Part shown: positions 40,724 through 59,283 of the stretch, in pieces | Layout: the number at the start of each line of letters is the position of its first letter | How positions within the stretch are numbered: the stretch's first letter is position 1 | Origin: Pseudonocardia alni | Lineage (GTDB): Bacteria > Actinomycetota > Actinomycetes > Mycobacteriales > Pseudonocardiaceae | Assembly (NCBI RefSeq): GCF_002813375.1 | Contig: NZ_PHUJ01000003.1 | Location: 4,464,001 to 4,528,000, forward strand | Reading direction: 5' to 3' | Length of the DNA stretch: 64,000 nt | Position numbers and translations under genes: made by a program | Notes under the pieces: generated by a model | The model's input: only the letters and a program-made list of their open reading frames with translations | The model's database searches: none | What the model was told of the DNA's origin: nothing

Positions 40724-41122
40724 CTACTCGGGAGCGGGCTCGGCGAGGACGCGCTGCGCGATCCGGAACGCCGAGTTCGCCGCCGGGACCCCGCAGTAGA
40801 TCGCGGTCTGCAGGATGATCTCGACGATCTCGTCGCGGGTCAGGCCGTTGCGCCGGGCCGCCCGCACGTGCAGCTCGAACTCCTCCCAGTGCCCGTGCGC
40901 GACGAGCGCGGTCAGCGTCACCGCCGAGCGCATCCGGCGCTCCAGCCCGGGGCGGGTCCAGATCTCGTTCCACGCATAGCGGGTGATCAGCTTCTGGAAG
41001 TCCGCGGTCGTGTCGTCGACGCGGCCCAGCGCCGCGTCGACGTAGTCCGAGCCGAGGACCTCGCGGCGCACGGCCAGCCCGTCGGCGTCCAGTTCGGCGG
41101 GGTCGATACCCGAGTCGCTCAT
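40724..41122 (-). CDS. 4-carboxymuconolactone decarboxylase family protein
   Basis: The 132-residue protein matches single-domain PcaC-type proteins: TLTALVAHGHWEEFELHVRAARRNGL in the centre, followed by EIVEIILQTAIYCGVPAAN. The enzyme decarboxylates gamma-carboxymuconolactone in the protocatechuate pathway, but no other pathway gene is nearby, so the substrate is uncertain. ATG 41122 is used. It is convergent with rdgB with three bases between. Confidence 0.85.
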   Translation of the reverse strand: MSDSGIDPAELDADGLAVRREVLGSDYVDAALGRVDDTTADFQKLITRYAWNEIWTRPGLERRMRSAVTLTALVAHGHWEEFELHVRAARRNGLTRDEIVEIILQTAIYCGVPAANSAFRIAQRVLAEPAPE

Positions 41123-41149
41123 GGTCGGCAGCCTCTCACGGCCGACCGC

Positions 41150-41285
41150 GACGGCACGCGCGCCGACCGCGGCCGGTGGCGCGTCCGGAGGTGCCCGGCC
41201 ACGCCGGACGGCTGCGGCCGGCGGCGCACACGGGGGAGCCCGGTCACGTGCGACGACCGCGGCCGACGGCACCGGCACGGGTCTC
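41150..41285. repeat. Degenerate GC-rich repeats upstream of the TVP38 gene
   Basis: The stretch before the TVP38 gene holds about three imperfect copies of a 42-45-base unit (each with GCGGCCGGYGGCGC-like core). In the reading frame of the downstream gene they would encode Ala-Gly-Arg repeats, but a start here lacks a ribosome site. I see no other gene in it. Confidence 0.4.
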
Positions 41286-41291
41286 GGTACC

Positions 41292-42014
41292 GTGATCTCC
41301 GTGCGGTGGTGGCGGTTTCTGCTGGGCTGCCTCGGGCTGGTGCTCGCGGCCGCACTCGTCGTACTCGTGGCCCGGTCCCTGGGGCTGTCCGCCGTCCCCC
41401 GGTTCGGTGAGCTGCGCCGGGCCGTGGAGTCCGCCGGGATCTGGGGCCCGGTCGTGTTCGTGCTGCTCCAGGTCGCGCTGAACGTCCCGCCCTTCCCCCG
41501 GACGGTGTTCACCGTGTCCGCCGGGGTGCTGTTCGGCGCCGTCGGCGGTGCGGCGCTGACCCTGTTCGCGACCGCGCTGTCCGCGGTCGTGGCGTTCGCG
41601 CTCGTCCGGGTCACCGGTGGGCGGCTCGTCGCCCGCTACGCCGGCCACCCGCGCGCGGTCTGGGTGCGCCGCAGGCTCGACCACCACGGAGTGCTCGCGG
41701 TGACGTCACTGCGGCTGATCCCGATGGTGCCGTTCGCGGTGCTCAACTACCTGTCCGGGCTGTCCCAGGTGCGGTTCTGGCCCTACCTGGTCGGGACGGT
41801 GATCGGGTCGGCGCCGAGCACCATCGCCGTCGTGGCCCTCGGCGACGCGGTGACCGGGCACGTGCCGCCGGCCCTGCTGCTGGTCTCCGGGATCTGCGCG
41901 GTGCTCGGGCTCGGTGGGGTGCTGCTCGCCGCGCGGCGGCCACTGCCGGACGAGGCCGACGCCGTCGCGCCCGGGGGCGCGGAGCCGACCCGGACCGCGC
42001 CGCCCGCCGGGTGA
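41292..42014 (+). CDS. TVP38/TMEM64 family membrane protein
   Basis: The 240-residue protein belongs to the VTT/DedA-related group of lipid-scramblase-like membrane proteins. It has a signature FPRTVFTVSAGVLFGAVGG region around residue 75, followed by SLRLIPMVPFAVLNYLSG and YLVGTVIGSAPSTI. About six hydrophobic segments are visible. GTG 41292 or GTG 41301 can be the start. The polar tail is rich in Pro and Ala. Confidence 0.87.
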   Translation: MISVRWWRFLLGCLGLVLAAALVVLVARSLGLSAVPRFGELRRAVESAGIWGPVVFVLLQVALNVPPFPRTVFTVSAGVLFGAVGGAALTLFATALSAVVAFALVRVTGGRLVARYAGHPRAVWVRRRLDHHGVLAVTSLRLIPMVPFAVLNYLSGLSQVRFWPYLVGTVIGSAPSTIAVVALGDAVTGHVPPALLLVSGICAVLGLGGVLLAARRPLPDEADAVAPGGAEPTRTAPPAG

Positions 42015-42032
42015 GGCGGGCGACGCGACGCG

Positions 42033-42106
42033 TGCCGGCGGCGGGATTCGAACCCGCACTTGCACGGACCTAAACCGTGTCTCTCTGCCAGTTGGAGTAC
42101 GCCGGC
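42033..42106 (-). tRNA. tRNA with UAG (Leu) anticodon but short variable loop
   Basis: Read on the minus strand this folds as a tRNA: a perfect 7-bp acceptor (GCCGGCG/CGCCGGC), T arm GCGGG-TTCGAAT-CCCGC, anticodon stem CACGG/CCGTG with loop TTTAGGT (anticodon at 42072-42070), and discriminator A; CCA is not encoded. The loop equals that of ordinary tRNA-Leu(UAG), but the variable region is only five bases, whereas Leu tRNAs have a long arm. The D stem is just three pairs (CTC/GAG), with three unpaired bases before the anticodon stem. Its first base is the last base of the HNH gene stop codon. It may be a special or decayed tRNA. Confidence 0.8.
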
Positions 42107-42756
42107 TAGTTCTTTCGGCCGCACCAGGTATCGGTGAGGGCGTGGCAGTTCGCGCACAGGATACGAAGGTTCTCGAGCCGGTTGTCGGTGTGGTCGCCGT
42201 TCACGTGGTCGAGCTGGAGCGGGACGGGTCGTCCCTGCCACTCGGTCAGGCCACACCCCTCGCACCGCGCGGCCTTCAGCCCCTCCGCGACGAGCCGCCG
42301 GCGCAGGGTCGCGCTGCTGCGGTAGCTCGACCCGCGAACCAGGATGTCCGCCAGCGGGCGTGCCCGCCGCCCCGGGAAGGTCCGGCCCCGGGCCCAGGAA
42401 CGCCCCGTGAAGTGTGTCGTGTCGAGCTCGAGCGTCCGGATATGCGCGACCACCGCCCGGAACATGCCGCCGCTGGGCTCGTACCCGAGCCGCCGGAGCA
42501 CGGCGTGCACGCTGACCTCGGCCGCGACGGCCGCCCGCAGCTCGCCGTCGGTGTAGCGCCGTCGGTGGTTGCGGTGCCCGGGGTCGAGCGCGCCCGGGAT
42601 GTGGCTCGCGTCCGCGCCGGTCCGGACGATGTGGGCTCGCAGCTGGTCGTACCGCCCGGGCCGGATGCCCAGCCGGTGACACACCTCGCTCAACCGTCGC
42701 GACACCGCCACCGCCGCGACCAGCTCCTCGTCGGTCCACCGGCGGGCGCGGGGCAC
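42106..42756 (-). CDS. HNH endonuclease with two N-terminal repeat domains, abutting a tRNA
   Basis: The 216-residue protein ends in an HNH nuclease domain: CEGCGL, then LQLDHVNGDHTDNRLENLR (the catalytic His in LDHVNG), then LCANCHALTDTWCG, with two CxxC zinc pairs. Two repeats of about 55 residues precede it (RRWTDEELVAAVAVS and RRYTDGELRAAVAAE, each running to a conserved G-x-x-x..HI element) and look like HTH DNA-reading units. This form resembles homing-type HNH proteins. Its TAG stop shares a base with the tRNA 5' end, so RNase P processing would cut the joint transcript exactly at the stop codon. GTG 42756 is the start. Confidence 0.87.
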   Translation of the reverse strand: MPRARRWTDEELVAAVAVSRRLSEVCHRLGIRPGRYDQLRAHIVRTGADASHIPGALDPGHRNHRRRYTDGELRAAVAAEVSVHAVLRRLGYEPSGGMFRAVVAHIRTLELDTTHFTGRSWARGRTFPGRRARPLADILVRGSSYRSSATLRRRLVAEGLKAARCEGCGLTEWQGRPVPLQLDHVNGDHTDNRLENLRILCANCHALTDTWCGRKN

Positions 42757-42791
42757 GTCCGCTCACCCCGCGCCCGCCGGCCGGACGGGCA

Positions 42792-43259
42792 TCAGACCTT
42801 CCAGTCCCGGCGCAGCTTCGCCACGTGCCCGGTCGCCTTCACGTTGTACTGCGCGTCGACGATCGTGCCGTCCTCGCCGACCAGGAAGGTGGAGCGGATG
42901 ACCCCGGTGACCGTCTTGCCGTAGAGCTTCTTCTCACCGAAGGCGCCCCAGGCGGTGAGGACCTCGCGGTCCGGGTCGGACAGCAGCGGGAAGGTCAGCT
43001 CCTCGTTGTCGCGGAACGTCGCGAGCTTGGCGGGCTTGTCCGGGGAGATGCCCAGTACGTCGATGCCCGCGCCGTTCAGCTCGGCGAGGTTGTCGCGGAA
43101 GTCGCAGGCCTCCTTCGTGCAGCCCGGGGTGCTCGCCGCCGGGTAGAAGTAGACGACGACCTTGCGGCCGCGGTAGTCCGCCAGGGAGACGGCCGTGCCG
43201 TCGGCGTCGGCGAGGGTGAAGTCGGGGGCGGTGTCGCCCGCCTGCAGCCGTGTGCTCAT
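42792..43259 (-). CDS. bcp: Thioredoxin-dependent thiol peroxidase (Bcp/PrxQ)
   Basis: The 155-residue peroxiredoxin reduces peroxides with electrons from thioredoxin. The peroxidatic Cys and resolving Cys are in STPGCTKEACDFRD (a C-x4-C pair typical of atypical two-Cys PrxQ), and APDFTLADADG opens the fold. ATG 43259 is used. It stands alone, upstream of the HNH gene on the same strand. Confidence 0.95.
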   Translation of the reverse strand: MSTRLQAGDTAPDFTLADADGTAVSLADYRGRKVVVYFYPAASTPGCTKEACDFRDNLAELNGAGIDVLGISPDKPAKLATFRDNEELTFPLLSDPDREVLTAWGAFGEKKLYGKTVTGVIRSTFLVGEDGTIVDAQYNVKATGHVAKLRRDWKV

Positions 43260-43532
43260 GACGATCAGCGTGCCACCCGCCGGGCGGGCCGCGGAGCCGA
43301 GTGCGGTGCCTGTGGACGTACCGGCCGGTTGTGGACGGGATGCGGCGCGGACGACCATCGGGCCGACCCGATCGGCGGCGCGCCGGTGGCCGGGCGCGCG
43401 GACCGGACCCTGCGGTGGCTACGGTGTGTGCCACGCCGCTCGCGGTGCCCGGACGTCGGTGTCGGGGCAGCGTCGGGCGCGAGCAGCAGGAGTCCCGGGC
43501 GCGGACGCGTACCGGCCGAACCGGAGGTGGAC

Positions 43533-59190: not shown

Positions 59191-59283
59191 CGGAGGCGGA
59201 CGGGAATCGAACCCGCCTGGCCGAGATGCTCGGCCACGTCGGTGTTGAAGACCGCGGGGGCCACCAGGCACCCATACGCCTCC
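59191..59283 (-). tRNA. selC: Selenocysteine tRNA (UCA)
   Basis: On the minus strand, 93 bases fold as tRNA-Sec. The acceptor is GGAGGCG/CGCCTCC, the anticodon loop CTTCAAC (UCA), with a very long variable arm (GGCCGAG-CAT-CTCGGCC) and T loop TTCGATT. The discriminator is G, as in tRNA-Sec and tRNA-Ser, and CCA is not encoded. It lies near selA, selB and selD and supports a working selenocysteine system. Confidence 0.95.

Follow-up and report, generated by a model that had tools for sequence, protein, structure and literature searches.

Homing endonucleases are known best from phages and organelles. Here we describe a chromosomal gene for an HNH endonuclease that shares one base with a leucine transfer RNA (tRNA) gene in Pseudonocardia alni; both lie in a window of 64,000 nucleotides (NCBI RefSeq assembly GCF_002813375.1, contig NZ_PHUJ01000003.1, positions 4,464,001 to 4,528,000 of the forward strand), to which all coordinates below refer. 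Among described systems, SegB of phages T4 and T6 comes close: the sections cited present it as a free-standing endonuclease of the GIY-YIG family, encoded between tRNA genes, that cuts inside such genes and promotes transmission of the tRNA region to progeny (PMC2988022, PMC13096335). In segG, segA, segE, mobB and mobC of T4, according to a section of the first source, the endonuclease coding sequence contains promoters for genes that follow it, which helps the endonuclease to be retained (PMC2988022). The cited parts of two further reports place mycobacterial HNH genes together with acquired tRNA clusters (PMC6582537, PMC9569102). Homologous HNH genes also adjoin tRNAs in phage tRNA clusters (Gordonia phages GodonK and Norvs, Rhodococcus phage Dorin, Pseudomonas phage PPSC2; PHROG 10822), and conserved tRNA sites serve as targets of group I introns with homing endonucleases and of collaborative homing.

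The Pseudonocardia locus resembles SegB in that a nuclease gene stands by a tRNA gene that is also its proposed target, whereas its nuclease is of the HNH family beside a single chromosomal tRNA and SegB is a GIY-YIG enzyme in a phage tRNA array. As in the T4 seg and mob genes there appears to be an embedded promoter, here deduced from codon conservation, but the T4 neighbours are phage genes such as gene 32 and here the neighbour is a host tRNA. The mycobacterial HNH genes accompany large acquired clusters, in contrast to a single resident tRNA gene. The phage relatives, 37-47% identical to the window protein, stand among many tRNAs of various kinds. Unlike the group I intron systems, the window tRNA is intron-free, although some viral relatives adjoin tRNAs split by group I introns. 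The original prediction knew of no described system with this geometry; that view has to be corrected, as an annotated HNH gene ends on nucleotide 10 of the next tRNA in GodonK (tRNA-Glu), Norvs (tRNA-Asn) and PPSC2 (tRNA-Leu). Within the literature searched, with most subscription journals outside its reach, we found no title that deals with HNH genes linked to tRNA-Leu in bacterial chromosomes. As far as literature searches show, a tRNA-Leu-linked HNH group in chromosomes of several phyla, its exchange together with part of the tRNA, and a promoter-like hexamer within catalytic codons appear to be new. We consider it probable that the window gene encodes a free-standing homing endonuclease of the HNH class that resides in the chromosome, targets tRNA-Leu genes and moves together with the 5' half of the tRNA and its promoter.

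The HNH open reading frame (ORF; 42106..42756, minus strand, by ORF call) encodes 216 amino acids from a GTG start to a TAG stop. The tRNA-Leu(UAG), with its short variable loop, was detected at 42033..42106 (minus) by ARAGORN, as tRNA-Leu(tag) at 42032-42106, and by Rfam (RF00005, 54 bits, 42033-42106). The last base of the stop codon, at 42106, is nucleotide 1 of the tRNA, so that the proposed arrangement of both genes on one strand, sharing only the G of the TAG, stands. The two helix-turn-helix (HTH)-like repeats expected ahead of the HNH domain were likewise recovered by aligning them with each other: residues 5-55 (42592..42744, minus) and 66-118 (42403..42561, minus) are identical at 22 of 53 positions. 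The HNH nuclease domain itself, placed by Pfam and conservation, spans residues 165-205 (42142..42264, minus), and C165, C168, D183, H184, N192, N196, C201, C204 and H205 are invariant in 22 sequences. Pfam profiles HTH_Tnp_1 (residues 4-43), HNH_3 and HNH all scored slightly under their cut-offs. PHROG 10822 ('HNH endonuclease') matches the protein at E 5.3e-50 and the PADLOC 'homing endonuclease' profile at E 1.3e-20; ZorE-type HNH profiles of PADLOC match too, with lower scores. An apparently intact catalytic motif and a predicted DNA-binding module are thus combined as in homing endonucleases, and the gene shares with the PHROG 10822 group both sequence homology and adjacency to a tRNA. 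A sequence search of the PDB gave weak matches, the best to entries labelled tropomyosin, which we do not interpret. Spread of the element by plasmids was considered and set aside, as a plasmid search gave no match.

The pairing of nuclease and tRNA is a property of the genus. HNH homologues occur in 47 of 62 Pseudonocardia genomes; we fetched the best 30 loci, each covering at least 213 of the 216 residues, and of the remaining matches some 16 are partial or broken and one lacks the first 27 residues. All 30 fetched loci have the UAG tRNA at the 3' end of the HNH gene on the same strand. The position of the stop codon varies: it ends on tRNA nucleotide 1 in six loci, coincides with T8-A9-G10 in 12 and with the TAG anticodon in nine, and falls just ahead of the tRNA in one and past it in two. 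Across 29 distinct tRNA sequences all 20 base pairs are kept, ten of them with changes on both sides. Since every locus has the tRNA and the tRNA keeps all its pairs, the pairing is not due to chance. In most genus loci the unit lies beside two conserved neighbours, a peroxiredoxin gene upstream (AhpC/TSA, Bcp-like, referred to as bcp; 42792..43358, minus) and a convergent gene for a VTT-domain (TVP38/DedA-type) protein downstream (41121..42014, plus).

No HNH match was found in 15 of the 62 genus genomes. Eleven of these keep a match of at least 86.9 bits to a covariance model of the UAG tRNA, and the nine that were fetched all carry tRNA-Leu(tag) according to ARAGORN, in seven cases 19-154 nt after bcp and in two adjoining the VTT gene without bcp. 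HNH remnants remain at L098, L100, L104, L105, L114 and L116. The nuclease is therefore present or absent at one site while the tRNA is kept, a polymorphism characteristic of homing. The idea that the HNH gene imports the tRNA into genomes without one was rejected, as the tRNA stands free of the nuclease in related species. In four genus genomes (G038, G041, G055, G061; drafts 72-99% complete) no usual UAG tRNA of at least 86.9 bits was seen, and the fetched loci held only UAA and CAA tRNAs. That the tRNA is an ordinary member of the genome's set, found without the nuclease in relatives, agrees with one of the observations that, according to the original prediction, would refute it.

In the family Pseudonocardiaceae as a whole, the HNH gene occurs in 29 of 297 genomes and four of 46 genera, and outside Pseudonocardia the UAG tRNA lies beside it in 11 of 11 genomes (nine by sequence, two by coordinates). 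In genera capable of carrying the HNH gene, the acceptor stem of tRNA-Leu(UAG) is GCCGGCG or a near variant, and the tRNA mostly adjoins a bcp-like gene (L140-L146); 13 loci of other genera (L147-L159) have GGGGCC(G/A), with no bcp within the short stretch fetched. In Actinomycetospora the HNH-tRNA unit is inverted relative to bcp (L141, L143, L146 and L177 versus L033-L062). This genus also shows a partial, D-arm-like tRNA copy directly before the tRNA, with or without the HNH gene (L143, L177 and several of L166-L173); by eye, the copy provides the HNH stop codon in L143 and L177.

Comparison of close relatives suggests that nuclease and tRNA have been swapped between species together. Among 45 genus genomes, nine pairs have Bcp identity of at least 93%, and in seven of these both members have HNH matches of at least 150 residues. 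The HNH proteins of six pairs are only 65-72% identical, with VTT proteins 87-96% identical. In these six mosaic pairs, tRNA nucleotides 44-73 are 0.97-1.0 identical, whereas the identity of nucleotides 1-39 is 0.72-0.92 in four. The clearest pair, L037/L059, is 95-100% identical up to the HNH start, 53-71% within the gene except for 91-92% at the first codons and the catalytic motif, 68-84% across the tRNA and the 80 nt that follow it, and 89-100% thereafter. The host itself, compared with G029, the closest by flanks among the examined loci, differs over roughly 42062..42760 (minus; HNH gene and tRNA 5' part) while both flanks match: identity falls from the HNH start, the tRNA differs only in nucleotides 10-44, and nucleotides 45-74 and the next 40 nt are identical. 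Partial Mantel tests on 24 of 29 loci (L045, the same as L044, was dropped before these and the codon-column counts, and loci without bcp were left out) associate tRNA with HNH given bcp (r 0.351, p 0.0005), and tRNA with bcp given HNH not at all (r -0.081, p 0.84). The HNH and bcp trees show well-supported conflicts at L036, L044 and L037/L059. The mosaic pattern in six of the seven testable pairs looks like recombinational replacement with co-conversion of the flanking target, as known for homing.

The association with leucine tRNAs extends to other phyla and to viruses. From an HNH alignment search we took the 80 best loci out of 266 genomic relatives and likewise the 80 best out of 219 viral ones; removal of near-duplicates by clustering at 85% identity left 78 genomic and 39 viral clusters. 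A tRNA-Leu lies at most 150 bp from the HNH gene in 72 of the 78 genomic and 22 of the 39 viral clusters, and an intron-split tRNA does so in five further viral clusters; among more distant tRNAs in the same loci the leucine share is 7/34 and 27/211, respectively. Some 30 of the 72 genomic clusters involve UAG or CAA tRNAs, mostly in Pseudonocardiaceae, and 38 involve UAA in other phyla. Leucine-linked HNH genes occur in Patescibacteria, Kofleriaceae, Nitriliruptorales and viral contigs, on either strand. In Patescibacteria the gene mostly precedes tRNA-Leu(UAA) by about 10-45 nt, often with tRNA-Cys on the opposite side (L302 has its tRNA upstream), and in viral contigs the tRNA-Leu is usually upstream of it. 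The tRNA is on the opposite strand in L293, L296 and L297 (deltaproteobacteria, Kofleriaceae). Two of the six non-adjacent genomic clusters have a tRNA nearby: L288 an Rfam tRNA 43 nt past the HNH match, and L294 a tRNA-Leu 275 nt from a truncated match.

In six viral contigs (L180, L199, L216, L217, L237, L244) group I introns (RF00028) split the tRNA gene beside the HNH gene, and ARAGORN predicts introns of about 200 nt there and in L203 and L224. After the predicted introns were removed by script, L203, L224 and L237 showed a TAA anticodon loop; L180, L199, L216, L217 and L244 did not, and we do not claim these five as leucine tRNAs. According to the part cited of a 2014 review, the phage introns known at that time were all in protein genes (PMC3984707). 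One viral contig, L254, carries a wcaG RNA motif (98.3 bits, 815-912) near a pair of HNH gene and tRNA-Ile.

Where the element inserts may be visible as a remnant of its target. In 37 deduplicated tRNA-Leu(UAA) loci of other phyla, we searched the 100 nt before the HNH match for 12-mers of the tRNA. In the pooled data 12-mers starting at nucleotides 13-15 are enriched upstream of the HNH gene (z 6-8), those from nucleotides 3-5 more weakly, and those from nucleotide 22 on not at all (z -2.8 to 2.3). Random non-leucine tRNAs as control gave z -0.8 to 0.4 at nucleotides 13-15, with 2.9 at nucleotide 10; the reverse complement gave nothing comparable. The signal remains at z 4-6 without the four best loci, and the tRNA-Leu of another locus yields the same D-loop peak without the signal at nucleotide 4. 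Clear single footprints are seen in L317 (nucleotides 1-22) and L314 (nucleotides 2-24). The pooled remnant of about nucleotides 4-25 would agree with an element that inserts on the 3' side of the D arm and restores the 5' end of the tRNA; a binding site kept in place could look much the same. The motif reported for SegB resembles, in our reading, the T loop, whereas the footprint here points to the D arm.

A further hint of co-adaptation lies inside the nuclease gene. The hexamer TATCCT (42158..42163, minus; located by codon conservation), 57 nt before the tRNA, sits within the codons CGT-ATC-CTG (Arg198-Ile-Leu) of the catalytic stretch NRLENLRILC. All 29 Pseudonocardia orthologues in which the motif was found use CGT for Arg198, while CGT makes up 65 of the 934 other arginine codons of those ORFs, and the Arg198 codon is also CGT in the four other full-length loci and the eight remnant loci in which the motif was found (4/4 and 8/8). 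One of the 30 full-length loci (L042) and four of the 12 remnants, in which the motif was not found, were left out of this count. The region reads CGTATCCT in 26 orthologues and CGTATTCT in three, and no second fixation of a rare codon was seen among 80 invariant HNH columns. Hexamers of the form TANNNT, a weak motif, also precede most other host tRNAs and the HNH-free UAG genes. TATCCT is likely the -10 element of the tRNA promoter; CCGACA (42183..42188, minus), read by eye 19 nt from it, is a tentative -35 element. Because the conserved hexamer lies inside HNH codons, we infer that insertion of the gene would leave the tRNA unsilenced and that deletion of the nuclease would tend to harm it.

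Several observations weigh against a mobile element directed at leucine tRNAs. In one of the seven testable pairs (G059/G019) the HNH proteins are as similar as the flanks (92.5% identical). One HNH gene is broken in two of the six mosaic pairs (G029, G026) and two pairs share G014, so that independent events are fewer than six; in two of the six the tRNA 5' half is almost unchanged (0.972 and 1.0). The tRNA 3' half is nearly invariant, which makes its staying behind hard to prove, and the HNH and bcp trees largely agree, so much of the inheritance is vertical. Variability of the UAG tRNA was discarded as proof of HNH action, because the CAA tRNA, which is free of the nuclease, is variable too (mean identity of distinct sequences 0.830 for UAG, 0.933 for UAA and 0.856 for CAA). 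In the footprint test single loci reach p<=0.05 in 4/44 cases for the tRNA 5' part and equally in 4/44 for the 3' half as control, so this argument rests on the pooled test with its controls; no peak was found in 29 Pseudonocardiaceae-type loci (upstream) or in 12 viral loci (downstream). Outside this family, in other phyla, the arginine codon at the hexamer is not constant. As to linkage, two genomic clusters (L298, L303) have no tRNA at all and two (L290, L292) no standard one, 12 of 39 viral clusters are nearest to another tRNA call (five of them intron-split) and five have none. Distant phage homologues adjoin Glu, Gly, Asn or His tRNAs, and two of eight named phage loci have no annotated tRNA; the leucine preference is therefore restricted to closer relatives. 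The expectation that HNH homologues always abut a tRNA-like gene accordingly holds for the 30 genus loci and, as a linkage, beyond them, with rare exceptions such as L298 and L303.

The tRNA itself appears to be a working leucine tRNA. Textbook tRNA-Leu is class II, with a long variable arm. The window tRNA has a variable loop of five nucleotides in place of such an arm, and it carries a TAG anticodon, A73 and a cloverleaf kept under covariation, the features expected of a functional tRNA. Reading every place among the 51 tRNA matches of the host (Rfam at E 0.001), we found this tRNA to be the only detected tRNA-Leu(UAG). Among the host's leucine tRNAs, GAG and CAG are long-armed and UAA, UAG and CAA have short variable loops; the three-pair D stem also occurs in long-armed tRNA-Leu of the host. 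The covariance model of the UAG tRNA matches 297 of 297 family genomes (E 1e-14) and 129 of 158 genomes of the class at 1e-12, leaving 29 without a match. All 20 class-level matches that we chose from the top of the class listing (L120-L139) are short-loop leucine tRNAs (nine UAG, eight UAA, three CAA) from 13 families. A short variable loop together with a D stem of three pairs is thus common for tRNA-Leu(UAG), (UAA) and (CAA) in Actinomycetes, and calling the tRNA non-standard, as was done at the outset, was mistaken. In the cited part of one report the tRNA-Leu(TAG) of a mycobacterial cluster has a short variable loop (PMC6582537), and that of another names tRNA-Leu-2, 3 and 5 of Mycobacterium tuberculosis as long-variable-loop tRNAs (PMC11541572). 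Because it is the sole tRNA-Leu(UAG) found, CTA codons stand in leucine columns and all pairs are kept, the window tRNA looks like a functional decoder. These short-armed leucine tRNAs, widespread in Actinomycetes, deserve attention.

That the tRNA instead acts as a decoy, or gives CUA another meaning by recoding, is next to incredible, even though it looks unusual by textbook rules. When three gene families were aligned across the genus, the column was one of leucine in 5/5 cases for CTA, 23/24 for TTG and 2/2 for TTA; a code change at CUA, UUA or UUG was rejected on these counts. The host genome has one leucyl-tRNA synthetase (LeuRS), so a second enzyme serving the short-armed tRNAs was rejected; and LeuRS of Escherichia coli, in the part of the report cited, requires A73 and D/T-loop contacts and not the long arm (PMC9976931). 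Very improbable, too, is a partnership at the RNA level, with a nuclease guided or inhibited by a tRNA-like RNA or a toxin-antitoxin-like pair. Adjacency on the same strand throughout the genus would agree with it, but such systems call for an RNA partner on the same strand that is no ordinary decoder; the window tRNA is a normal decoder, present also without the nuclease, the tRNA lies on the opposite strand in L293, L296 and L297, and domains and profile are of the homing-nuclease type. Among the three readings offered originally, the decoy and the tRNA-guided nuclease find no support, and the homing element with a tRNA end of its own is supported by the mosaic loci, the tRNA-Leu linkage in several phyla and viral contigs, and the pooled footprint elsewhere.

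Two DNA-level alternatives deserve more consideration. The nuclease could be domesticated, merely placed before the tRNA while doing another job for the host, for example guarding the tRNA gene as a common integration site; catalytic residues invariant in 22 sequences and the lower-scoring ZorE-type profiles would suit such a role. We hold it to be unlikely, since 15 of 62 genus genomes lack the nuclease and some 16 more have it partial or broken with the tRNA kept at the locus, and since neither mosaic exchange nor a pooled footprint would be expected. An old phage-type HNH gene might also have landed once by the tRNA and been inherited vertically since, the mosaics reflecting ordinary homologous recombination around a conserved tRNA. 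The flanking of the gene by bcp and the VTT gene, seen in most loci of the genus, and the largely congruent trees speak for such hitch-hiking; we give it rather poor odds nevertheless, as the linkage in Patescibacteria, Kofleriaceae, Nitriliruptorales and viral contigs, on both strands, goes far beyond one event and the exchange is centred on the HNH-tRNA unit.

A homing endonuclease directed at tRNA-Leu genes would work as follows. The HTH repeats would bind a tRNA-Leu gene without the element, and the HNH domain would cut it near the 3' side of the D arm. Repair from an element-bearing copy would import the HNH gene, the promoter and the tRNA's 5' part, which would restore the tRNA and remove it as a target. 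The element's own tRNA would resist cutting, and inheritance would be biased towards the element. The nuclease gene often takes its stop codon from the tRNA. More speculatively, and in our estimate possible but doubtful, the locus could be a natural 'cleave and rescue' element, which attacks the sole tRNA-Leu(UAG) gene in other strains by cutting its D arm and carries as its cassette a recoded, cut-resistant 5' half with promoter, the same strategy being applied to tRNA-Leu(UAG), (UAA) and (CAA) in Actinomycetota, Patescibacteria, Kofleriaceae and phages. Recipients would then keep a working tRNA only by copying the cassette.

Elsewhere in the window, Rfam detects a selenocysteine tRNA gene (59192-59283, minus, 75.2 bits).

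Taken at its most probable reading, the locus means that, in several bacterial phyla, a homing nuclease has apparently taken up residence at a chromosomal tRNA gene that the host has in single copy. In Pseudonocardiaceae it seems to have acquired adaptations of its own: the hexamer within catalytic codons, a gene end on T8-A9-G10 or on the anticodon, and joint exchange with a portion of the tRNA. Should the proposed cutting prove true, nature would offer here a model for nucleases that damage a gene their host needs while carrying its repaired version, as well as a set of candidate tRNA-Leu-directed nucleases, and it could help to explain why this particular tRNA differs between close species.

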